Source of the DNA: a virus
Virus record (IMG/VR): IMGVR_UViG_3300030098_004828
Coordinates: 124,001 to 188,000 of that record
Strand: one strand, 5' to 3'
Length of the DNA: 64,000 bases
Every line of letters starts with the position of its first letter. Positions within the stretch are counted from its first letter, which is position 1. Positions 146 to 19,866 of the stretch are shown one piece after another. Position numbers and translations under genes: made by a program. A model generated the notes under the pieces. The model saw only the letters and a list, made by a program, of their open reading frames with translations. It had not been told where the DNA came from and ran no database searches.

Positions 146-509
146 TTTTTATTAATTTAATTTCTACACCTGGATTTTCCTTATCATATTCATAAGGTTC
201 AAATACAGGTATAATGTTTTCACAATTATCATCATCAATCCAATTATGTTTAACCATATCATCTTGCACTGTCTGTGCAGGATTAATATAGTCAAACTTA
301 TGTTTGGATCCTCTGATGAATTTAAATGATATTTTTACCGGTAATTCTAGTTTAGCCAATTGCTTCCTAAAGCCCTTTCTAAACTGATCATAGTATTTAG
401 CTGTTTCTTTTCTATACTTAGTTGTTGCTTTACTGGACACGAAATATCTTCCTGTCCATCTTCTTCCATTTTTACTACTTGGTACGTTACCTGGTATAAA
501 CCATTTCAT
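102..509 (-). CDS. RusA-like Holliday junction resolvase
   Basis: This 135-residue protein has the size and layout of RusA family endodeoxyribonucleases, which cut Holliday junctions and branched DNA during phage recombination and before packaging. The N-terminal GNVPSSKNGRRW segment matches the family's opening strand and turn. The acidic segment DYINPAQTVQDDMVKH followed by WIDDDNCENI supplies the spaced aspartates that bind metal in RusA. The tail is very basic and ends in a serine run. Its start overlaps the stop of the primase gene by four bases (ATGA), so the two are probably translated together. The family call is fairly secure; activity is inferred. Confidence 0.82.
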   Translation of the reverse strand: MKWFIPGNVPSSKNGRRWTGRYFVSSKATTKYRKETAKYYDQFRKGFRKQLAKLELPVKISFKFIRGSKHKFDYINPAQTVQDDMVKHNWIDDDNCENIIPVFEPYEYDKENPGVEIKLIKNGKKTKKKCSSSSD

Positions 510-1486
510 AGAATACTTTTAAGTTTAACTTTAATTTCTTTATGAGCATCAGCAAAACCTTTCTCTTTTACAAGATCAGCAATGTCTTTGCTACTATCTA
601 ACCATGTGCCTTTTATGTCATATAACTGTTCATATTTATTAACAGCATTATGTCCAGCAACATCATTATCAAATAAAGTTACAACTTTTTTATACTTTTT
701 CTTAAGATTTTCAATAATATACGGTTTTATTACAGTATTTTCTGAGTCAGGTGCAATAACTTCTAAATTGTATCCAAATTGTTTTAGACACATTGCATCT
801 TTCAAAGAAGAACATATAACAAGATAAGGTTGATTATACTCTAATTGATCTATACCTTGAAGATGAGGTTTAACTTTTATGAATTTAAACTTCTTATTTT
901 TTGGTTGATAAATCTTATAGATGTTACCATCTTTATCAAAATAACCATATATATAAGTTTTAGCTAATAATGCACCAATAGTTCTTTGATCTATTGATTC
1001 TTCACTTTCTTTTACCATACGGTAAAAATTAAGTGGTTGAACATTATATTTATTAAGAATATCTTCACCAATATTAAAACTTAACCAAAATTCTCTGTCC
1101 CAATCAGACCATCTTCTTGGATTTACAGATTCTACTTTAAATTTTGCTTCTGGTTTTATAGTTGATTGTTTATATTCTCCTTTTTCTGTAATAAACTTGT
1201 TATAATCTTGACCTATTTTAAATACAGCTTTAGAAAAGTCTATTTTAAATAGTTCTTTAACTAAATCAATTTTATTACCACCTTTACCTGTTGAAAAATC
1301 TTTAAACTTATATTGACCTTTATCCGCAAATATCCACATGCTTGGAGTTCTTTCTGTAGGATGAAATACAGATTTAATCTGCACATTCTGTCCATTTAGT
1401 CTTTCTGGTAGATCCAGATAGAACTCAAACACCCATGTACTTGGAACTTTAGATCCATCTAATATGAGATTCTTTGTACTTATCAT
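506..1486 (-). CDS. DnaG-like primase with Toprim domain
   Basis: This 326-residue protein resembles small phage DnaG-type primases. The N-terminal part (about 40-80) contains HPTERTPSMWIF and FKDFSTGKGGNKIDLV, the pattern of the primase zinc-binding domain, but the expected cysteines are missing, so the zinc site looks degenerate. A Toprim domain follows: YLVICSSLKDAM near 221, with Ser in place of the usual catalytic Glu region, then VVTLFDNDVAGHNA with the DxD at 273-275, then a conserved DSSKDIADL. It should make RNA primers for the helicase encoded upstream at 3518-4471. The unusual first Toprim motif leaves catalysis open. Confidence 0.82.
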   Translation of the reverse strand: MISTKNLILDGSKVPSTWVFEFYLDLPERLNGQNVQIKSVFHPTERTPSMWIFADKGQYKFKDFSTGKGGNKIDLVKELFKIDFSKAVFKIGQDYNKFITEKGEYKQSTIKPEAKFKVESVNPRRWSDWDREFWLSFNIGEDILNKYNVQPLNFYRMVKESEESIDQRTIGALLAKTYIYGYFDKDGNIYKIYQPKNKKFKFIKVKPHLQGIDQLEYNQPYLVICSSLKDAMCLKQFGYNLEVIAPDSENTVIKPYIIENLKKKYKKVVTLFDNDVAGHNAVNKYEQLYDIKGTWLDSSKDIADLVKEKGFADAHKEIKVKLKSIL

Positions 1487-1622
1487 AATCTTAAAAAATA
1501 TAGGGACAAGTAAGTGCCCCTATATATTAAAAACTATCTATTAACTGCTATTATGCGGTCCGTATTAAAAACCGTTGCAGGACAGTTAATAGTCCTCTTA
1601 CTAGGTATATTATCCTGCAAAA
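1487..1622. other. Structured intergenic region between SSB-like and primase genes
   Basis: No gene fits in these 136 bases, but inverted repeats are dense. CTATTAACTG (1538-1547) pairs with CAGTTAATAG (1583-1592). TTGCAGGA (1575-1582) pairs with TCCTGCAA (1613-1620). GGAC (1580-1583) pairs with GTCC (1592-1595). Near 1499-1523, TATAGGG pairs with CCCTATA. Several of these pairs share bases and cannot form at once, so the minus-strand RNA could fold in alternative ways. It may be an attenuator, a processing site or a regulatory leader for the primase. Function is inferred only from pairing. Confidence 0.55.
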
Positions 1623-2333
1623 TTATAATTCAAAATCAGAACCTGATCCTGAATCTGCTTTAAATGGTATTTCTTCAGTAGTAGATGAAGAATCTTTCTT
1701 AACTAAAGCTTTAACATGTACTCCACGGTCAAACTTAAGTAATCTAGAATTTTCTTTATCTAATGCTTCCATAGCAATACCATCTTTAGATATACGTGGT
1801 AAATAAAGATCATTATTTATATAACCTTCTTTATTTTCCCACTCACGACCGCCAATACACATGTTAATAAGTTTAGAACCACCCATTAATCTATTACATT
1901 CAGTCATAAATTCTTCTATAGTTTGTGCTTCAATAGAATCTAATCCATCTCTCATATCTAATGTTTCAGCTAAAGTAATCATATGCTTTAAGATTTCTTG
2001 ATCTCTGCTAATTTCTCTACCACTTGGTAATGTAGTGTCTTTAAATGGAAAAGGACTTATTCTTACTCTACCAACTTGACCATCATATCTTCCTTTAGAT
2101 TGATCATTATAATCTCTAAAGAAACCTTCAAAATCACCTCCAACAGGTGCAGTTTCTACGTGTAAATGTATATTGTATGAATCTGCATCATACGGTGTTT
2201 GATCTAATGTAATAGAATTAATTTTTACTACATGATTTCCTGGTTCTAATACAGGTTTAATTCGTCCACTTCCTGCAGACATGTCTTTAGTATTTAACAT
2301 AACTTTCTTATTTTTTAAATTTACTTCACTCAT
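1623..2333 (-). CDS. Probable single-stranded DNA-binding protein
   Basis: This 236-residue protein ends in SGSGSDFEL, a flexible Ser/Gly/Asp tail closing on a hydrophobic tip. That resembles the C-terminal partner-binding peptide of SSB proteins. The body has alternating strand-like segments (HVVKINSITLDQ, YNIHLHVETAPVGG, GRVRISPFPF) compatible with an OB fold. It lies between the Sak4-type ATPase and the primase, where phages often keep their SSB. No family motif is diagnostic, so the call rests on the tail, the size and the neighbourhood. Another replication or recombination accessory role is possible. Confidence 0.5.
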   Translation of the reverse strand: MSEVNLKNKKVMLNTKDMSAGSGRIKPVLEPGNHVVKINSITLDQTPYDADSYNIHLHVETAPVGGDFEGFFRDYNDQSKGRYDGQVGRVRISPFPFKDTTLPSGREISRDQEILKHMITLAETLDMRDGLDSIEAQTIEEFMTECNRLMGGSKLINMCIGGREWENKEGYINNDLYLPRISKDGIAMEALDKENSRLLKFDRGVHVKALVKKDSSSTTEEIPFKADSGSGSDFEL

Positions 2334-2339
2334 TTTTTA

Positions 2340-3023
2340 TTAATTTTCATATTCAATAATTGCATCTTTAACAACTTTTAATGAATTATCTATACGTGCA
2401 TCATCAAACATTCCTGCTGGTGATTTGCAAGTATTTTCTCCATTATTAGCTGTTTCAAATACATAACTTAATTTATCATCTTCTCCTTTGACTACTTTGC
2501 CAAATAAAACTATAGAAAATAGACCTTCTAAAGTTAAAGCATTATCTATCATTTTACCTACAGTTTTTGCTTTTACTTTTCTATGTCCATTCACATCTGT
2601 TGATTCTTCTGAATGTGTTAAAAAGAATATATATAAATCATCTCTCATATCTTTAGGCATCTTAGCAACTTGTGCTAGATTCTTTGCAATTGAGGTAAAT
2701 TTATCATAACCCTTTTCATCAGCTCTATCAAAATATTCAAAACTTGACATATATTGCCAATCATCTATTACTAGATTTTTTATATGAGGCATTTTATCAT
2801 TAACATGCATCATAGCTTTCATAATCCCTGCGGCAGATGACACTCCTGTCATATTTCCTTTTTGATTATCTTTGCCAATCATTGTATAATTCTTTTTCCA
2901 TCCTTTAAATGGTAAAGGTTTATTTGCAATGTTAATAATAAATGTCTCTTTAGGATCTAAATCCCTAATTGATGTAGATTTACCTGACCCTGAGTCAGCT
3001 ATAACTAATACAGATTGTGCCAT
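2340..3023 (-). CDS. Sak4-like RecA-fold recombination ATPase
   Basis: This is a 227-residue RecA-like ATPase of the Sak4 type, which assists single-strand annealing and phage recombination together with an SSB. The Walker A loop ADSGSGKST is at residues 9-17 and the Walker B strand NLVIDD at 83-88. LYIFFLTHSEE near 130 fits the sensor strand, and the overall length is typical. The gene lies directly upstream of the SSB-like gene with a six-base gap, the pairing expected for Sak4 systems. The call is well supported by motifs and context. Confidence 0.82.
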   Translation of the reverse strand: MAQSVLVIADSGSGKSTSIRDLDPKETFIINIANKPLPFKGWKKNYTMIGKDNQKGNMTGVSSAAGIMKAMMHVNDKMPHIKNLVIDDWQYMSSFEYFDRADEKGYDKFTSIAKNLAQVAKMPKDMRDDLYIFFLTHSEESTDVNGHRKVKAKTVGKMIDNALTLEGLFSIVLFGKVVKGEDDKLSYVFETANNGENTCKSPAGMFDDARIDNSLKVVKDAIIEYEN

Positions 3024-3024
3024 T

Positions 3025-3513
3025 TTATTTATTTAATTTTTGGTTTATACTCAATAATGCTTTTTCAATTCCTTTAAGAACATCTACTATGTCTCTTTTA
3101 TCTGGATTAGTTATTGGTGTTATACAGTCACTAACTTTAGGTTTAAATTGTTCCATTCTATTAGTTACATCATTAATAACTTTTAATTCAGATACAGGTA
3201 CAATATGTCTTTCAAATCCTGAACTACTTGTTACTGTTTCATATTCTTCAGCCCAATGAGGATTATGTTTAAATAAATATAATGTTCTTTTTGGATCTTC
3301 TGAGTTATATTCTATACTAACAAACTCAGTATAAATATCTCTACTTTTTTGTAATTCACTTGGAAAGAAAGATATATGTAACTCATCTTTTCCTGATGGT
3401 CTATATGCCATCTTTGGTATGTATAGTGCATTTATATTACCAGATTTTTGGAAATAATCTTCATGCTCTTCTTTTAATTTTAATACTTTTGCTTTACGCT
3501 CTTGTGGTGTCAT
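3025..3513 (-). CDS. Hypothetical replication-module protein
   Basis: I place the start at the ATG giving MTPQERKAKVLKLKEEH (162 residues). It follows the helicase stop by four bases and is preceded by AAGAAG; a longer frame starting at 3555 would overlap the helicase by 38 bases. The protein opens with a charged helix, has a central strand-rich part (LHISFFPSELQKSRDIY) and ends in a helical segment VDVLKGIEKALLSINQKLNK. I do not recognise a family. Position between helicase and Sak4-type ATPase suggests a DNA-metabolism accessory role. Confidence 0.7.
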   Translation of the reverse strand: MTPQERKAKVLKLKEEHEDYFQKSGNINALYIPKMAYRPSGKDELHISFFPSELQKSRDIYTEFVSIEYNSEDPKRTLYLFKHNPHWAEEYETVTSSSGFERHIVPVSELKVINDVTNRMEQFKPKVSDCITPITNPDKRDIVDVLKGIEKALLSINQKLNK

Positions 3514-3517
3514 ATAA

Positions 3518-4471
3518 TTATCTTCTTTGTTCTTGAGGTGGTGTGTCCATCTCACTTATTTGCATTCTTTCAAATTCTGCTTTGAAAAAACTCATACGTG
3601 TATCACCATTTCTTGCTTTAAGGAAATGTAATACAAGAGTTCTATCATTTTCTATTATATATCTATCAGGACCATAATATCTAATCTTTTGTTTAGCAGG
3701 ACGGTTGATACCTATTAAAGTATCAGCATGCTGTAACATTGCATCTGAACCAAATATATCTGATTCTAATACATAATTACCATACTTACCATTAGTTGCT
3801 CTCTCTGGATTATCTATATTCCTATTTAATTGTGATAAACATATAAACATACAAGGATATTTACGTTTCATCTCTGTAAAAAACTCACCTAATTCAAATA
3901 ACATGTCTAATCTGTTATTTTGATATGGTGCTCTTTTTACAAGAATACTATGATCTAATGTGATAATAGTTTTCTTTTGATGTTGATTCATATAAATATC
4001 AACTTGATCTCTCATCTGGTTAACAGTCATTGGTGTAGTTATTTGATCTACAGGACTTTTAATTCTATCTTTAGCATACACATGACATTTATCAAATGTA
4101 TTTTTATCTAAAATAGTTCCTGCACTACATAATTGTTTATAAGTTTTACCAGTAATAGATGAAAACTCTCTTAATGCTGTAGTTCTTCCTACCATTTCAA
4201 AGCTAAATTCTAATACTCTGAAATCTTCTTCAGGATTTAGAATGAAAGATTCTCTTATTATCTGATCCTTGATCAAGGTTTTCCCTGATCCAGGTCTTCC
4301 CCCGATGACAGTAAGAGTATTCCATTCTAATCCATCAGTTACAGCATCATTAAACTTAGGCCATGGAGTTTGTATAGATTTCTCTGTACCACTTTGCCTA
4401 GCAAGCATATATTTTAATGCATCATTAAATGCTTGATATTGTCCGTCCCATGCTGGTTTAACTTTACTCAT
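3518..4471 (-). CDS. DnaB-like replicative helicase (ATPase domain only)
   Basis: This 317-residue protein matches the RecA-like C-terminal domain of DnaB hexameric helicases. The Walker A loop GGRPGSGKT is at 57-65. LEFSFEM at about 90 is the family motif 1a. TIITLDHSIL near 165 is the Walker B strand, and MFICLSQLNR near 208 is motif H3. A terminal LHFLKARNGDTRMSFF matches the DnaB arginine-finger region (usually KxRNG). The N-terminal DnaB domain is missing, as in many phage helicases. It should unwind the fork for the primase at 506-1486. Its start overlaps the upstream gene by four bases. Confidence 0.88.
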   Translation of the reverse strand: MSKVKPAWDGQYQAFNDALKYMLARQSGTEKSIQTPWPKFNDAVTDGLEWNTLTVIGGRPGSGKTLIKDQIIRESFILNPEEDFRVLEFSFEMVGRTTALREFSSITGKTYKQLCSAGTILDKNTFDKCHVYAKDRIKSPVDQITTPMTVNQMRDQVDIYMNQHQKKTIITLDHSILVKRAPYQNNRLDMLFELGEFFTEMKRKYPCMFICLSQLNRNIDNPERATNGKYGNYVLESDIFGSDAMLQHADTLIGINRPAKQKIRYYGPDRYIIENDRTLVLHFLKARNGDTRMSFFKAEFERMQISEMDTPPQEQRR

Positions 4472-5605: not shown

Positions 5606-6136
5606 ATGACTAAAAAGAAAACTAATAAAATGCCTAAAAAAGCTTCTACTAAACAGCAGAAAATTGAAGCAATAGATAAGCTTTCTAAAGTTGCTAAAGG
5701 TAAAGTAGTTACAATACCTGATGATGCAATTATAAATCTACCTATATCAGGTGATTTTAAAAAAGCTATAGAAGAAACTTTGCATTTTGTCATGTCTGAT
5801 ATGGCTGTTGCTGAAATAATAGTTGCAATGAAAAGGATTAGAGAAGGTTTTAAAGGTGTTGATCCTGCAACAGTTACTAATGCTGAAAGAGCTTGTTGGG
5901 TTTTAATGTCTCTTGTTTCAGAAATAAATCATCAAGCTGCTATACAAGAAAAAACTGTTATTACAGATGAAAATGTAAATGAAAAACTGGCTGATGCTAT
6001 AAATGCACTTGATACTGATGCTGCTATTGCAGATATAATAAGTGAAAATGTAGAATACAGAAATTATAGATCTGAAAGAGATAAAGTTATAGATGATTTA
6101 ACTAAATCTCAAGATAATAAGGATGAAAATGATTAA
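5606..6136 (+). CDS. Lone plus-strand hypothetical protein in the early module
   Basis: This 176-residue protein is the only plus-strand gene among the minus-strand early genes. It begins with a lysine-rich tail (MTKKKTNKMPKKASTKQQK). The middle is helical (FKKAIEETLHFVMSDMAVAEIIVAMKRIREGF; AERACWVLMSLVSEINHQA) and the C-terminus is acidic. The basic start and helical body would fit a DNA- or RNA-associated protein, but I recognise no family. Its 3' end overlaps the end of the convergent gene at 6133 by four bases. Its own promoter probably includes the palindrome at 5557-5584. Confidence 0.72.
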   Translation: MTKKKTNKMPKKASTKQQKIEAIDKLSKVAKGKVVTIPDDAIINLPISGDFKKAIEETLHFVMSDMAVAEIIVAMKRIREGFKGVDPATVTNAERACWVLMSLVSEINHQAAIQEKTVITDENVNEKLADAINALDTDAAIADIISENVEYRNYRSERDKVIDDLTKSQDNKDEND

Positions 6137-6516
6137 CGTAAGTTAATTCCAGTAAAATCCCCCATTTCAATTAAGGACTGTATTACCAAGTTTAATTCTT
6201 GTTTACTACAGTCCTTAAATGATTTACAATATTCTTGACTATCTTTAACAAAACATAATCCTGTTTTTCTTTTAGCTTCTAATTTTATTTCAGCAAACGT
6301 ATGTCCTATATCATTTGCTAATTCTCTAATCATAGCATGAATCTTTGCAAGTTGTGCATTAGTTCCATCTTCACCAGATACACTAGCAAATATTTCTATT
6401 TTAGTTCCTTCAGGTAATTCTTGTATCCAATTTTTATAAAGAGTACCTTTAGCTTTTATGGTGTGGATAAGTTCTCCATCCACTTTTTTTAGTATTGAAA
6501 AGAAGTTGTTTTTCAT
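6133..6516 (-). CDS. Hypothetical protein, weakly NinB-like
   Basis: The start is set at MKNNFFSILKKVDG (127 residues) because this ATG overlaps the stop of the upstream microprotein as ATGA; an upstream Met in the same frame is less likely. The first half looks strand-rich. The second half has AQLAKIHAMIRELANDIGHTFAEIKLEAKR, a helical pattern reminiscent of NinB and related phage recombination proteins, where a residue run on 'QN...IHAMI..LA...G' is common. That resemblance is weak. It is the last gene of a chain that begins near 9.8 kb. Confidence 0.68.
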   Translation of the reverse strand: MKNNFFSILKKVDGELIHTIKAKGTLYKNWIQELPEGTKIEIFASVSGEDGTNAQLAKIHAMIRELANDIGHTFAEIKLEAKRKTGLCFVKDSQEYCKSFKDCSKQELNLVIQSLIEMGDFTGINLR

Positions 6517-6593
6517 CTTGTAAGTATTGGTATTAATAAAAGTATTAACCAACATAACATTAACATTATGAAGAGATAATCATCTTTTTTCAT
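6513..6593 (-). CDS. 26-residue membrane microprotein
   Basis: The ATG at 6593 overlaps the TGA of the 41-residue gene upstream, and this frame's own TGA overlaps the ATG at 6516 downstream. ATGA junctions at both ends make it a good candidate for real translation. After MKKDDYLF it is almost entirely hydrophobic (Ile, Met, Leu, Cys, Trp) and ends in Thr-Arg, so it would form one membrane helix. I recognise no family. Confidence 0.55.
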   Translation of the reverse strand: MKKDDYLFIMLMLCWLILLLIPILTR

Positions 6594-6715
6594 GATACTA
6601 AATATAAAAGAAAGCATCCTAATCCAATAATTATTGCTCCTATTATTATTTTTTTTATATCTTGATCAGCTTCTTTAGCTTCTTCTTCCCATTCTTGAAG
6701 TTCTTTATCAGTCAT
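6590..6715 (-). CDS. 41-residue single-helix membrane microprotein
   Basis: It opens MTDKELQEWEEEAKEADQ, an acidic amphipathic stretch, followed by Lys-Lys and a hydrophobic helix (IIIGAIIIGLGCFLLYLV). The start follows the stop of the gene at 6718 by two bases, and the stop overlaps the next start as ATGA. The layout suggests a small inner-membrane protein with its N-terminus in the cytoplasm. Early phage proteins of this kind may remodel the host envelope or exclude other phages, but here that is speculation. Confidence 0.6.
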   Translation of the reverse strand: MTDKELQEWEEEAKEADQDIKKIIIGAIIIGLGCFLLYLVS

Positions 6716-6717
6716 AA

Positions 6718-6975
6718 TTATAAATTTTCATGTTCCTCCACTATTTCTTTTTCTATTTCATACATAGTTTCTGGACACAGTTCATAAAAAAAATCAGCCA
6801 TATCTACTTGTTCATCAGTTGATGTATTATATTCATCATTCCATAAATAAATTGCTTCTACTTCAACAGTAGCTCCTGTACCAGGATAATCATGTGTACT
6901 TGGCTCAGCCGGTATATATTGATATTCTATATCTATTTCCCAATTATTTATTTTTTTTGAATAAGTTTGTCTCAT
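6718..6975 (-). CDS. Small acidic hypothetical protein
   Basis: I set the start at MRQTYSKKINNWEID (85 residues). This ATG overlaps the TGA of the upstream microprotein and is preceded by AAAGGAAA, a plausible ribosome site; the longer frame from 7035 would run through that microprotein in another frame. The protein is strand-like up to YIPAEPSTHDYPG and TVEVEAIYLW, then has a strongly acidic helical tail ending in EIVEEHENL. Family unknown. Confidence 0.68.
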   Translation of the reverse strand: MRQTYSKKINNWEIDIEYQYIPAEPSTHDYPGTGATVEVEAIYLWNDEYNTSTDEQVDMADFFYELCPETMYEIEKEIVEEHENL

Positions 6976-7052
6976 TTTCCTTTCATTATATATGATATCA
7001 TAGCTCCAGTTATAAATGCAACTGCAGCTACACAAATTATTGTTAATGCCAT
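6972..7052 (-). CDS. 26-residue single-helix membrane microprotein
   Basis: The reading frame starts MALTIICVAAVAFITGAM and ends in Met-Lys-Gly-Lys, i.e. one hydrophobic helix with a short basic end. It begins one base after the zinc-ribbon gene stops at 7054 and its TGA overlaps the ATG of the next gene. This packing and the clean hydrophobic profile support translation. The length is too short for family assignment. Confidence 0.55.
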   Translation of the reverse strand: MALTIICVAAVAFITGAMISYIMKGK

Positions 7053-7053
7053 T

Positions 7054-7227
7054 TTATTTATTTGTTAATATTAATCTTGCAGGAAGTACTTTGTTAAAAT
7101 TACATATTGTACAACATCTTCCTTCTTTATTATATAATGGTGATGGATTATGACCATAACCTGTAAATTCTTCTTTACATATACAACAAATTTTTATTTC
7201 TTCTTTTTTATCTGTCTGTTTATCCAT
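7054..7227 (-). CDS. Small zinc-ribbon protein
   Basis: With the start at MDKQTDKKEEIK (57 residues) the protein carries CCICKEEFTGYGHNP and later GRCCTICNFNKVLPARL. The two Cys-x-x-Cys pairs, about 20 residues apart, make a treble-clef or ribbon-like zinc site. Similar small proteins with this 'C..C.eeFtGyG..P' pattern occur widely in phages without a known role. The longer frame from 7269 is less likely, because the 40-residue microprotein at 7194-7316 covers that stretch. Confidence 0.68.
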   Translation of the reverse strand: MDKQTDKKEEIKICCICKEEFTGYGHNPSPLYNKEGRCCTICNFNKVLPARLILTNK

Positions 7228-7316
7228 GATCCTAATTGTGTTGTTACATAAATTCCTAATGCGAAGCACGCTCCACCAAAGATGAAGAGTGCTCCTAATT
7301 CTAATATATTAATCAT
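7194..7316 (-). CDS. 40-residue membrane microprotein
   Basis: The frame begins MINILELGALFIFGGACFAL, a Gly-rich hydrophobic helix, and ends in a very basic tail with four lysines. Its start overlaps the end of the coiled-coil membrane gene at 7309 by eight bases, and its tail overlaps the start of the zinc-ribbon gene by 34 bases. Basic residues after the helix suggest the C-terminus lies in the cytoplasm. Family unknown. Confidence 0.5.
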   Translation of the reverse strand: MINILELGALFIFGGACFALGIYVTTQLGSWINRQIKKKK

Positions 7317-7620
7317 ATTTTAATTTCATTGAATCTAATTGATGTCCTAAATCCATTATTTCTATATATAATGAATCTATAGTTTTAATTTTTTTACCAC
7401 ATTCATGTTGTAAAGCTTCATCCATGTGACCTACTTGATTTATCCAGAAATTTTCAGTTAATATTCTAACTTCTTCATTTAAATTTTTAATTTCTTTTGA
7501 TTTACCATGAGATATAAGTAATAATATTATTATAATGCATACAAATGCTGTTATAATTGGACTACATTTATGCCCTATAATATTTAATATCCAGTTTTTA
7601 AATTTATTTATTAATTTCAT
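7309..7620 (-). CDS. Membrane-anchored coiled-coil protein
   Basis: This 103-residue protein has a short basic start, one hydrophobic segment (PIITAFVCIIIILLLISHG, about 20-38) and then a charged coiled coil (KSKEIKNLNEEVRILTEN... KTIDSLYIEIMDLGHQLDSM). This is the outline of an inner-membrane spanin, but it lies in the early module rather than beside a lysin, so a host-membrane or replication-anchoring role is as likely. The start overlaps the SF2 helicase stop by four bases. Confidence 0.68.
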   Translation of the reverse strand: MKLINKFKNWILNIIGHKCSPIITAFVCIIIILLLISHGKSKEIKNLNEEVRILTENFWINQVGHMDEALQHECGKKIKTIDSLYIEIMDLGHQLDSMKLKYD

Positions 7621-8726
7621 CTTTCTAAAGGGTTAAAGTATTTAATTTTATTATTATCAAAATTACTAAGTGCGGAGTTCACCCATTTTACATCTTGAGT
7701 ATTCTTATAACATAATATATGACATGTTGCAGTCTCACTTGGATTAAGTCTTAGCAGCCGACCTATTCTTTGTGCTGACTTACGTTCATTACCATATGCA
7801 TGCATAATAATACCTTGACGTAAATTAGGTATAGTAACTCCTTCACTCAGTTGTAATACACAAGACAGCTTATCTATTCTACCATCACTGAATAACTGTA
7901 AGTTATCTTCTGATGCGGTATTTTTAGAATGATAGCTGTGATTACACATTCTATCTGCTTGTGCTTGTGTATTAGCAAAGACAATACATTTTTCACCTAT
8001 ATTTTTCATCAAACCTTTAGCATATGCTTCTTTAGTAGGATAATCCATCATAGATTTCATTCTCATAATAGAGAGATATTGTCTTTGTTTTGGTGTTTGA
8101 GCATCTCCTAATGCTCCAGTAAAATAACCATAGTCTGCTTTTTCAGAAGTATACCAAAATCCTCCATCTTTTTTAGTTTTCTTAACATTCTTTATTCCTG
8201 ATAATTCTAATTCATGCACTATGATCTGATAATCATTAAGTATATCATTGTCTGCTGCATCATCTACACTAAATGTATATTTAACAGGACAATACTTATT
8301 GACCATCTTTAATTTCTCTCCTAATTTAGGTGGTGTACCAGTTAGTCCCAGTATTCTACCTTTAAATTCAGACAGAAATGTTTCATGTGTTTCCAATAGA
8401 CTATGACATTCATCTAAATAAACTATATCATAATCTTTTGGATTCTTTTTATTTAATGATAAATATGTTGTATAAATTATATGATTTTCTCCTATTTCTG
8501 ATTTACCTAATAGTTCTAGTTCTTTAATCCAAACAGTCATTACTGACCATTTTGGAACAACAACTAATACTCTTATGAATGGATCATATAATTTTAATAA
8601 ATGGTTAATGGCAATTCTTGTTTTACCAACACCCATAGATATACCGAGCGTTGCTCTGTTGTTATTAATTGCTATATCTAAAGCATCTTGTTGTACTTTA
8701 TCTCTTGATATTTCTTTCACTTCCAT
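7617..8726 (-). CDS. SF2 DNA/RNA helicase
   Basis: A 369-residue superfamily 2 helicase. Walker A is SMGVGKTR at 30-37, the DECH box is at 105-108, motif III is TGTP at 129-132 and motif VI is QRIGRLLR at 319-326. CIVFANTQAQADR and LQLSEGVTIPNLRQGI are motifs IV and V. The order is right and the protein is compact, like phage UvsW/RecG-type helicases that act on branched DNA. A role in replication restart or recombination with the RusA-like and Sak4-type proteins is inferred. Confidence 0.85.
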   Translation of the reverse strand: MEVKEISRDKVQQDALDIAINNNRATLGISMGVGKTRIAINHLLKLYDPFIRVLVVVPKWSVMTVWIKELELLGKSEIGENHIIYTTYLSLNKKNPKDYDIVYLDECHSLLETHETFLSEFKGRILGLTGTPPKLGEKLKMVNKYCPVKYTFSVDDAADNDILNDYQIIVHELELSGIKNVKKTKKDGGFWYTSEKADYGYFTGALGDAQTPKQRQYLSIMRMKSMMDYPTKEAYAKGLMKNIGEKCIVFANTQAQADRMCNHSYHSKNTASEDNLQLFSDGRIDKLSCVLQLSEGVTIPNLRQGIIMHAYGNERKSAQRIGRLLRLNPSETATCHILCYKNTQDVKWVNSALSNFDNNKIKYFNPLER

Positions 8727-8794
8727 TTGTTATTTAATATATGTTGACTTATAATAAGTATTGTTACAAGTATTATTACTGCTATTATTTTCAT
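8717..8794 (-). CDS. 25-residue membrane microprotein
   Basis: The start ATG shares one base with the TAA of the gene upstream (TAATG), and its TGA lies eight bases inside the SF2 helicase gene. The sequence MKIIAVIILVTILIIS then a polar tail is one short hydrophobic helix. It has the same design as the other microproteins between 6513 and 7316. Translation is likely from the junctions, but unproven. Confidence 0.5.
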   Translation of the reverse strand: MKIIAVIILVTILIISQHILNNKWK

Positions 8795-9057
8795 TAGTTT
8801 AATCCTATATTATTATCTTTTAATATTCTATGTAATTCTTCATGTTTATCCATTTCTTTAAAGTGTTCTTGAATTTTATCAAGTCTTTCACTTAATTCTT
8901 GTGGTAATACATGCATTTCAAAGTCATTAACTTCATTTATTATATGTAATAAAGTTTCTTGATCTATAATGTCAGGATTATCTGACAAAAACATTGCAAG
9001 ATTATATAAATCTTCTTTTTCTAAATTATTTGCTAAGTATTTAAGTAATTTTATCAT
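8794..9057 (-). CDS. Small acidic helical protein
   Basis: An 87-residue all-helical, Leu- and acid-rich protein (MIKLLKYLANNLEKEDLYNLAMFL ... ELSERLDKIQEHFKEMDKHEELHRIL). No motif is recognisable. It is coupled to the HNH gene upstream by a four-base overlap and to the microprotein downstream by TAATG. An antirepressor, inhibitor or structural adaptor would all fit such a protein; I do not assign a function. Confidence 0.65.
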   Translation of the reverse strand: MIKLLKYLANNLEKEDLYNLAMFLSDNPDIIDQETLLHIINEVNDFEMHVLPQELSERLDKIQEHFKEMDKHEELHRILKDNNIGLN

Positions 9058-9317
9058 ATTCTTTTAATTGAAAATCCTAATTCTTCTGCTTCTATTGGAT
9101 TAAGTTCTATCCAATTGTGGCAGTTTCTACATACTGATAACCAGGTACTTATATCATTATGATATATACCTCTACCTTTTTTATGATGTACATCTGTTGA
9201 TTTATGAGTACATCTAGGTAATGCAGCTTGACACATAGGATAGTCAGTAAGGAATACCCTCCTTAACTTACTATACTTTGCATCAGTTCTCTGCATTTTC
9301 CTAGACTTGCTTTTCAT
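9054..9317 (-). CDS. HNH endonuclease
   Basis: An 87-residue minimal HNH protein. Cys29 and Cys36 pair with CRNC (Cys63, Cys66) to form the structural zinc site. DVHHKKGRG supplies the catalytic His pair (44-45). WLSVCRNCHNWIE gives the closing CxxCH with the usual aromatic residue. The N-terminus is highly basic (MKSKSRKMQR). Phage HNH enzymes nick or cut DNA in packaging, recombination or homing. Here it is tucked tightly into the early operon with overlaps on both sides, so it looks like a resident gene, not a homing intruder. Confidence 0.82.
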   Translation of the reverse strand: MKSKSRKMQRTDAKYSKLRRVFLTDYPMCQAALPRCTHKSTDVHHKKGRGIYHNDISTWLSVCRNCHNWIELNPIEAEELGFSIKRI

Positions 9318-12396: not shown

Positions 12397-12594
12397 TTAT
12401 TTTAATTTTTCAGCTACTACATTAAGTGTAAATAAACCTAAAGTTAATAGGCCTACTCCCATTATAAATATTAATACAGATGTCCATGCGTGTATTAATG
12501 AATAAATTAATGCATATATTCCAACACCAATAGATGTTATCATTGCACTTAATACTAGTAAAAACTTGATCATGTTAAAAATTTTATCTTTCAT
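12397..12594 (-). CDS. Small two-helix membrane protein
   Basis: A 65-residue protein with two hydrophobic segments: FLLVLSAMITSIGVGIYALIYSLI and TSVLIFIMGVGLLTLGLFTLNVV. The ends are charged (MKDKIFNMIK; AEKLK). It is followed closely by the gene at 11727 and preceded by another small membrane gene. Holin-like size, but its early-module location argues against lysis. Confidence 0.62.
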   Translation of the reverse strand: MKDKIFNMIKFLLVLSAMITSIGVGIYALIYSLIHAWTSVLIFIMGVGLLTLGLFTLNVVAEKLK

Positions 12595-17274: not shown

Positions 17275-17487
17275 ATGAATATATTTAAAGACAATAATGA
17301 TTGGAACGAAAAAGCTATAGTCGGATTTGTAGCTTTTATAATAATGTGTATAATAATGATTGCTGATCTTGCCACTGGTTGGTACGGTTATGATCTTGTA
17401 ATTAATGAATTTGTATATGATTCATTTGTTTGGGTTGTTCTCGGCTGCTTTGGTATTAGCGGTGTAGAGAAATTTGCCAAAAAATGA
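17275..17487 (+). CDS. Two-helix membrane protein, candidate holin
   Basis: A 70-residue protein with hydrophobic segments at about 15-33 (IVGFVAFIIMCIIMIADLA) and 48-63 (FVWVVLGCFGISGVEKF), a charged N-terminus and a Lys-Lys end. Size and topology fit a small holin, which would open the inner membrane for the lysin-like protein encoded at 19246. It sits in the late block, supporting that. It overlaps the next gene by four bases. No holin family signature can be read directly. Confidence 0.6.
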   Translation: MNIFKDNNDWNEKAIVGFVAFIIMCIIMIADLATGWYGYDLVINEFVYDSFVWVVLGCFGISGVEKFAKK

Positions 17488-18881: not shown

Positions 18882-19259
18882 ATGGCAGATAACACTGTGA
18901 ATTCTGGAGATACTCCAGAAACTCTATCTCCAGAAGAGATGGCAAAAAGAAGAGCTGAAATTACAGCTTATTATGAAGAACATATTCCTTCATTAAAAAT
19001 TCAATTACAATATGAAGAGCTTTTAAGAGACATTGAAAAAATGCGTGCTGAAAGATTACAAGCTCAAATGTTTATAACTAAATCTATGGCGGAACCACCA
19101 ACTGGACCAACTACACCTCCAATGCCAGGAAAACCTGCGCAAAAGGAATTTAATAAAGCTAAAGCAGCTAATACTATAGCTAATATGCCAGAAAAAAAAG
19201 GTGATTGTCCTGGATGTGATAAGAAAAAAGAAAAAGCTTTAAAAGATGCAACTAAGTAG
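18882..19259 (+). CDS. Hypothetical protein of the packaging block
   Basis: A 125-residue protein with a helical, charged middle (MAKRRAEITAYYEEHIPSLKIQLQYEELLRDIEKMRAERLQAQ), a Pro-rich linker and a C-terminal CPGCDKKKEK knuckle. It resembles small conserved unknowns next to lysis genes in crAss-like phages. Its last 14 bases overlap the next gene. Confidence 0.62.
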   Translation: MADNTVNSGDTPETLSPEEMAKRRAEITAYYEEHIPSLKIQLQYEELLRDIEKMRAERLQAQMFITKSMAEPPTGPTTPPMPGKPAQKEFNKAKAANTIANMPEKKGDCPGCDKKKEKALKDATK

Positions 19260-19866
19260 AGAAAAAATTCAAGAAACCATCAAACGTAAAACAGATTATC
19301 TGTGGTTTAGCAAAGGTGATTACAATCTTAATATTGTGGGTGTAAGAAACTCAGATACTAAGAATGAAGTTACAAACCGTTTTGATGATAAAATAACTCT
19401 TTCTTATAAAGTTAATGGTGAATGGCAATTCCATTGTTTTGATTGTACAACAGATCCAGGAACACACTGGGTTGAAAATATCATGAGAAAAGATGGAGTT
19501 GCAATCCTTAAACCTGGTCAATATAGAGGAAGTCATATTATTAGAAAACATCAAGGTAGATATGAAGCTTTAGGACAAGATAGACCTGTAAAAGTATATA
19601 GAGATGATAATAGAGATCATATGTATAATCTTTATGAATCTGCAGTACAAGAGGGAAATTTTGGAATAAATATTCATAGAGCTACTAAATATGCTGGTAA
19701 AAAATCTACACAAGTAGATAAATGGTCAGCAGGTTGTCAAGTAATTGCAGCTAATGATGATTGGAAATTATTTATGAAAATCTGTAGAAAAGCCAGAGAT
19801 GAATGGGGTAATAGATTTACTTATACTTTATTGGAAAGTAAAGATATATTACATTCATGGCTATAG
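19246..19866 (+). CDS. Putative lysin, L,D-transpeptidase-like
   Basis: A 206-residue protein. GINIHRATKY (His144) followed by VDKWSAGCQVIA (Ser161, Cys164) is the His...Ser-x-Gly-Cys arrangement of the YkuD-like fold that acts on peptidoglycan stem peptides. The C-terminal WGNRFTYTLLES strand is also typical of the phage versions. No signal peptide is present, so export would need the candidate holin at 17275. The N-terminal half is a beta-rich extension (ITLSYKVNGEWQFHCFDCTTDPG). Peptidoglycan cleavage is inferred from the motif; cross-link synthesis is unlikely in a phage. Confidence 0.68.
   Translation: MQLSREKIQETIKRKTDYLWFSKGDYNLNIVGVRNSDTKNEVTNRFDDKITLSYKVNGEWQFHCFDCTTDPGTHWVENIMRKDGVAILKPGQYRGSHIIRKHQGRYEALGQDRPVKVYRDDNRDHMYNLYESAVQEGNFGINIHRATKYAGKKSTQVDKWSAGCQVIAANDDWKLFMKICRKARDEWGNRFTYTLLESKDILHSWL

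Follow-up and report, generated by a model that had tools for sequence, protein, structure and literature searches.

Phages T4 and SPO1 carry early accessory regions, variable blocks of tiny genes beside conserved early genes, which are thought to be host-directed. T4 Imm and T5 Llp are phage superinfection-exclusion membrane proteins or lipoproteins. According to a review that cites Fremin and colleagues (2022), phage small genes of undefined function are a known, catalogued kind (PMC11323111). P22 SieA is described as a superinfection-exclusion membrane protein acting from the prophage (PMC10883804). We examined a chain of five very short predicted membrane genes, designated mpA to mpE, in a 64,000-nucleotide stretch of viral DNA (hereafter the window; positions 124,001 to 188,000 of IMG/VR virus record IMGVR_UViG_3300030098_004828). 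Judged by comparison with relatives, the chain is best read as one allele of an accessory zone, open to exchange, that lies among conserved genes for an HNH endonuclease-like protein, an SF2 helicase and a NinB-like protein.

Open reading frames (ORFs) and hydropathy confirmed five predicted frames, all on the minus strand, each of 25 to 41 residues with one hydrophobic segment. The 19-residue Kyte-Doolittle maxima of the window copies range from 2.1 to 2.9. mpA (8717-8794) encodes a 25-residue single-helix microprotein (MKIIAVIILVTILIISQHILNNKWK), mpC (6972-7052) and mpE (6513-6593) encode single-helix microproteins of 26 residues each, and mpD (6590-6715) encodes 41 residues comprising a conserved acidic N-terminus and a variable hydrophobic helix. 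The most widespread of the five, mpB (7194-7316), encodes a 40-residue single-helix microprotein with a positively charged C-terminal tail and the motif GMYxTTQIxxWI. Support is strong for mpB and mpD, moderate for mpA, weak to moderate for mpC and weak for mpE.

In transcription order the genes are HNH, g87, mpA, SF2 helicase, cc103, mpB, a 57-residue CxxC gene, mpC, g86, mpD, mpE and g140. ATGA overlaps join mpC to g86, mpD to mpE and mpE to g140, and a TAATG joins g87 to mpA, which also overlaps the helicase start by 10 nucleotides. The overlap between cc103 and mpB is 8 nucleotides and that between mpB and the CxxC gene 34, while mpC starts 1 nucleotide past a stop and mpD 2 nucleotides past g86. 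The junctions are as tight as the original prediction held; it had described most of them as ATGA or TAATG overlaps, and some are neither (the 8-, 10- and 34-nucleotide overlaps and the gaps of 1-2 nucleotides). Translation coupling is plausible from these junctions. Stop/start overlaps are a general habit of the whole operon and not peculiar to the microgenes. The chain does not belong to the core replication operon: the genes for primase, Sak4 and a DnaB-like protein are found at 506-4471, and a plus-strand gene (5606-6136) stands between them and the chain's operon.

Relatives were collected by means of the helicase. The 57 obtained, together with the window and a second copy present in the same record (C2, used as an additional relative), gave a set of 59 loci. 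Gene maps revealed a mosaic zone in which microgenes switch slots, replace each other and retain stop/start overlaps. Because the tiling behind these maps favored short overlaps, junction counts taken from them are biased, and junctions were recounted from family members and transmembrane ORFs without tiling. ATGA overlaps persist where the slot occupants differ. mpB lies upstream of g86 in most relatives and downstream of it in L001, L013, L022 and C2. mpD precedes g140 and, in L011, also g87; mpA precedes the helicase and in L011 follows it. The place of mpC, which it holds in the window, L008 and L011, is occupied in most relatives by a conserved soluble gene of 39-45 residues (the MGKMK family), and the junction upstream of g140 carries differing single-helix genes among relatives. 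Directly after the helicase stands cc103, a lipoprotein-like version of it, or a 158-172-residue protein with a signal-peptide-like start. A 65-residue two-helix gene, at 12397-12594 in the window, sits between g87 and the helicase in two relatives (L015, L019); in L005 it precedes the helicase.

We then asked how often such frames are expected by chance. The gaps between conserved genes in 27 close relatives or copies (24.8 kb) contained 70 sense-strand ORFs of 20-70 residues with a strong hydrophobic segment, whereas 50 first-order Markov shuffles gave a mean of 0.78 (standard deviation 0.91, maximum 3). The same gaps contained 21 such ORFs in antisense, which shows that composition and overlap contribute and that the shuffle ratio therefore overstates the case; family conservation is the stronger argument. 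All 22 complete intervals held at least one transmembrane micro-ORF. Within the 64-kb window, five of eight tallied entries (tiled transmembrane ORFs of at most 70 residues) fall within these 2.3 kb.

Iterative profile searches of all sense-strand ORFs at the 59 loci recovered the helicase in 59, g140 in 52, HNH in 49, mpB in 38 (loci or copies), g86 in 31, g87 in 27, cc103 in 23, the CxxC gene in 22, mpA in 11, mpD in 10, mpC in 3 and mpE in 2. No counted homologue was interrupted by a stop, an outcome partly built in because homologues were sought among open frames. In closer pairs, ratios of nonsynonymous to synonymous differences (pN/pS) were 0.33 for the helicase, 0.38 for HNH and g86, 0.40 for g140, 0.46 for cc103 and 0.68 for g87; for the microgenes they were 0.47 (mpB), 0.84 (mpD) and 0.91 (mpA). 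Across the analyses mpB (0.47-0.56) and the N-terminal part of mpD (0.40) had coding-like ratios, whereas mpA and the mpD helix came out at about 1. Under neutral drift at the observed divergence, a lone mpB or mpD frame would stay open in approximately 5-15% of cases at typical distances. These selection and drift tests are weakened by the choice of homologues from open frames and by the non-independence of the sequences. Like accessory small genes, mpB and mpD are short, conserved in frame and patchily present in relatives, and we regard both as genuine proteins on these comparative grounds. Membrane insertion and early expression of the microproteins are predicted.

mpB presents a single helix, then G-h-Y-x-x-x-Q, then a basic tail, the succession by which the family is defined. 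G21, Y23 and Q27 were invariant in 20 aligned sequences, and pN/pS was 0.56 overall, 0.37 in the motif half and 0.76 in the helix half. The C-terminal flank is basic, with a mean net charge of +2.9 over 40 sequences, and the basic tails suggest that mpB probably lies with its N-terminus outside and its C-terminus inside, so that the tail with the conserved motif would be cytoplasmic. A phmmer link between mpB and two-helix proteins of 59-66 residues was not accepted as homology.

Occurrences of mpB beyond the group were retrieved with a DNA pattern for GMYxTTQIxxWI. This pattern selects the motif, so finding the motif conserved among the retrieved sequences is no independent evidence; the selection did not extend to the hydrophobic start or the basic tail. 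The pattern yielded 25 stretches in viral contigs, about a dozen of them without the operon's other genes near mpB (HNH-type genes, L075, excepted). When 14 out-of-group records were searched, none contained this helicase, and a recognizable relative of this terminase was present only in the mpD carrier L102; several of the 14 are short fragments, in which absence means little, and four are 105-171 kb. mpD was likewise found in other genomic contexts. Three mpB carriers encode a T4-type Gp23, one of which is closest, at about 50% identity, to those of Microcystis phage Mel-JY01 and the Flavobacterium immuto phages. The exact mpB DNA motif did not occur among 84,980 bacterial and archaeal genomes, and no credible match to the mpB motif was found in 50,697 phage records. 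In L114 (record G025), which is crAss-like and has a zone without mpB, mpB is located elsewhere and overlaps the start of a gene that by eye is uracil-DNA glycosylase-like.

In seven distant crAss-like relatives (L028, L030, L032, L034-L036 and L048), mpB forms the N-terminus of a 124-132-residue protein with a soluble domain. Record G006 encodes a free mpB and a separate 106-residue protein matching that domain (profile E=1.6e-12; BLASTP 42% over 48 residues). The occurrence of the domain in both fused and split form suggests a functional partnership with mpB, from a single case. An AlphaFold model of the fused protein (predicted local distance difference test, pLDDT, 83) consists of a long helix and a small alpha/beta domain, and had no convincing match in the PDB.

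Two further membrane proteins were observed in these contexts. A protein of about 129 residues (RRRAIxCK...GYCKYxITI) lies near mpB in six out-of-group contexts (L073, L074, L082, L085, L093 and L094; also records G009, G011, G006 and G001), upstream or downstream and in varying order; its recurrence may be functional or may simply reflect the same region. In the window, a 70-residue two-helix membrane protein at 17275-17487 on the plus strand has 63% identity over 67 residues to one in G006, an unrelated phage record, which suggests that phages of these types have exchanged another membrane gene as well.

The mpD N-terminus is conserved and acidic (MTDKELxEWEEEAKEAxxDIK). Among 13 distinct sequences, pN/pS was 0.40 for the N-terminus against 1.09 for the helix, and high hydrophobicity was retained in the helix of 12 of the 13, compared with a mean of 1.75 under simulated open-frame drift. 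As the helix remains hydrophobic despite free substitution, selection appears to act on hydrophobicity and not on sequence. mpD probably carries an acidic peptide that faces the cytoplasm, held by a membrane anchor that can be interchanged. L011 carries two different mpD copies (79-210 and 2644-2772) in two slots, each overlapping the following gene by 4 nucleotides; this fits either a duplication or more than one acquisition.

The remaining microgenes are less widespread. Homologues of mpA occupy the same slot in L007, L012 and L016-L018 and another slot in L011, with weaker members in L029 and L031; two distant matches outside the zone (L015, L019) may be spurious and were omitted from the selection analysis. 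The overall mpA pN/pS was 1.11 (0.69-1.68). Besides the window, mpC homologues were found only in L008 and L011, and mpE homologues only in L057 and L079, which encode an identical protein with 77% amino acid identity to that of the window (10 nucleotide differences and no indel). Pattern scans for mpC and mpE returned no further homologues.

We propose that very short membrane genes would be inserted, lost, swapped and moved at the junctions between conserved DNA-processing genes. Stop/start overlaps would usually be kept, so that the microgenes would be translated as part of the operon, and the microproteins would work at the inner membrane of the host, with host proteins, defenses or competing phages as their targets. 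This reading, an accessory zone with action on host membrane proteins, defenses or competing phages, we consider on balance probable, and a host-membrane role is the most likely one, ahead of a role in the phage's own replication, given that mpB turns up again in unrelated phages and mpD in further contexts. Superinfection exclusion, which the original prediction had also named, is perhaps one candidate, a rather doubtful one when taken specifically; modification of the host membrane, another role it named, is likewise a candidate. Several observations weigh against the proposal. The spread of mpB in unrelated phages could instead mean a general intracellular function needed by many phages. 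No family, defense or structure match in PHROG, Pfam, PADLOC or the PDB gives a function: PHROG had no significant match for mpA to mpD (mpE lay outside the scan), Pfam none for mpB, and PADLOC none for nine proteins including mpB, mpD and cc103. Transmembrane calls were made by Kyte-Doolittle hydropathy alone, the host range of these phages is inferred from distant relatives, the mpA ratio near 1.1 gives no purifying signal, and homologues of mpC and mpE are too few. A bolder extension of the proposal, which we offer as tentative, is that mpB founds a family of membrane-tethered adaptor microproteins that move among phages, both crAss-like and T4-like marine ones, with a soluble partner that is sometimes fused and with overlap junctions as the exchange format for membrane microgenes.

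Other explanations account for parts of the same evidence. The microgenes could matter chiefly as translated spacers by which terminating ribosomes reach the conserved gene that follows; the peptide itself would then be nearly irrelevant beyond membrane tolerance. Stop/start overlaps at many junctions, whatever microgene is present, and the variation of the mpD and mpA helices without purifying selection agree with such couplers, but motif conservation in mpB and in the N-terminus of mpD, the fusion of mpB to a domain, its presence in unrelated gene contexts with different junctions, and the occurrence of the conserved genes in relatives without the microgene make this unlikely. Membrane anchoring of the phage replication or recombination complex, a role raised in the original prediction and suggested by the neighboring helicase, HNH and NinB-like genes, is still less likely, because the conserved genes occur without particular microgenes and mpB travels without those genes. 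The set is accessory, position-shifting and partly absent in close relatives, mpC and mpE are nearly private, and some phages with mpB have neither this helicase nor this terminase (TerL); it was this occurrence of mpB without the helicase that led us to reject anchoring as the leading reading.

Peptides that time lysis, whether holin/antiholin or small lysis inhibitors, have a similarly low probability. Their size, single helix and charged tails would fit, and there were insignificant lysis-family profile matches (mpB to phrog_7, E=0.24; cc103 to phrog_6918, E=0.042). However, no holin-family profile match was significant, the endolysin-like match lies at 19246-19866 on the other strand and does not adjoin the zone, several different types of microgene occur per genome, and the zone is situated among DNA-processing genes. 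Finally, the frames could be non-functional open frames in AT-rich DNA. The few homologues of mpE and mpC, the lack of purifying signal in mpA and the hydrophobic antisense frames given by low-GC DNA point that way, but for the set as a whole the excess over shuffled sequence, together with family conservation, mobility and constrained motifs, makes this very improbable, and for mpB and mpD it is largely refuted.

The conserved genes and soluble neighbors are all on the minus strand. The HNH endonuclease-like backbone gene (9054-9317) matched the PHROG HNH endonuclease at 1.2e-10, and g87 (8794-9057) is an 87-residue soluble conserved gene. The SF2 helicase, used as the anchor gene (7617-8726), matched Pfam ResIII (3.2e-9) and Helicase_C (2.2e-8) and the PHROG DNA helicase (4.3e-32). 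cc103 (7309-7620) has an N-terminal helix and a predicted coiled coil, the latter judged by eye. Distant cc103 members, assigned by iterative profile search, carry a lipobox-like LxSC in L030, L032, L034-L036, L048 and others, and look like lipoproteins. The 57-residue soluble CxxC protein (7054-7227) is zinc-ribbon-like and had no Pfam match, and g86 (6718-6975) is an 85-residue soluble conserved gene. At the operon end, g140 (6133-6516; 127 residues) is a conserved backbone gene that is weakly NinB-like: 15 of 38 family members matched PF05772 NinB at E<=0.1, the best at 0.006, which is below a confident call. An AlphaFold model of g140 (pLDDT 87) had no convincing PDB match. In L028 (6733-7296, in the slot before g140) and also in L031, we observed a protein of about 185 residues with an N-terminal helix and a C-terminal domain resembling phrog_21574 (1.5e-11, function not annotated). 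By eye, L028 had seemed to encode a peptidoglycan-type domain, but Pfam did not confirm it.

The virus record that holds the window is 245,646 bases long and comprises two related genomes, with base 2 onward aligning to base 124,783 onward at 87.7% identity, and two terminase genes. It is probably a chimera assembled from two phages of about 120-125 kb each. The two genomes meet inside the primase gene at about window position 783 (base ~124,782 of the record, G000), where a first genome of about 124.8 kb is followed by most of a second that is 87% identical; window bases 1 to ~782 and the remainder may consequently come from different phages. TerL and portal matched PHROGs 6681 and 6547, head-protein profiles were likewise used for placement, and the major capsid protein had distant matches in Cellulophaga phage phi14:2 (E=9e-6) and Leptolyngbya phage Lbo-JY46 (3e-42). 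By these profiles and matches the phage would sit loosely with the crAss-like phages. DNA searches of deposited phages found no close relative. That the contigs are marine is our own reading of IMG identifiers and neighbors.

The finding of real, tightly packed single-helix microgenes, of a kind that most gene finders would drop, agrees with what was first proposed for this DNA. Gene finders usually omit genes of this length, and annotations of marine phages may therefore lack a recurrent class of membrane peptides. The 40-residue mpB, with a motif common to unrelated phages and sometimes fused to a soluble domain, is a testable lead to a host target, and the zone offers a natural swap series in which to study the exchange of overlapping microgenes within an operon that stays intact.

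A literature search on exclusion by small membrane proteins and on small genes of marine crAss-like phages found little. As far as our tools show, the mpB and mpD families, the slot exchange and the mpB fusion are new; published small-gene catalogues were not compared. As the review describes them, the catalogued phage small genes are similarly short, unannotated and mostly without known function, whereas here a defined set in one exchangeable zone was tracked through its relatives, and both occurrence in other phages and fusion to a domain were seen. Like SieA, Imm and Llp, mpA to mpE are phage-encoded and, by prediction, membrane-located, and distant cc103 members are lipoprotein-like; no sequence relation to them was found, however, and SieA is borne by a prophage, whereas mpA to mpE would be single-helix peptides of 25-41 residues. 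With the early regions of T4 and SPO1 the locus shares variable tiny genes adjoining conserved early genes, but here these are mostly single-helix microgenes that alternate one by one with the conserved genes.

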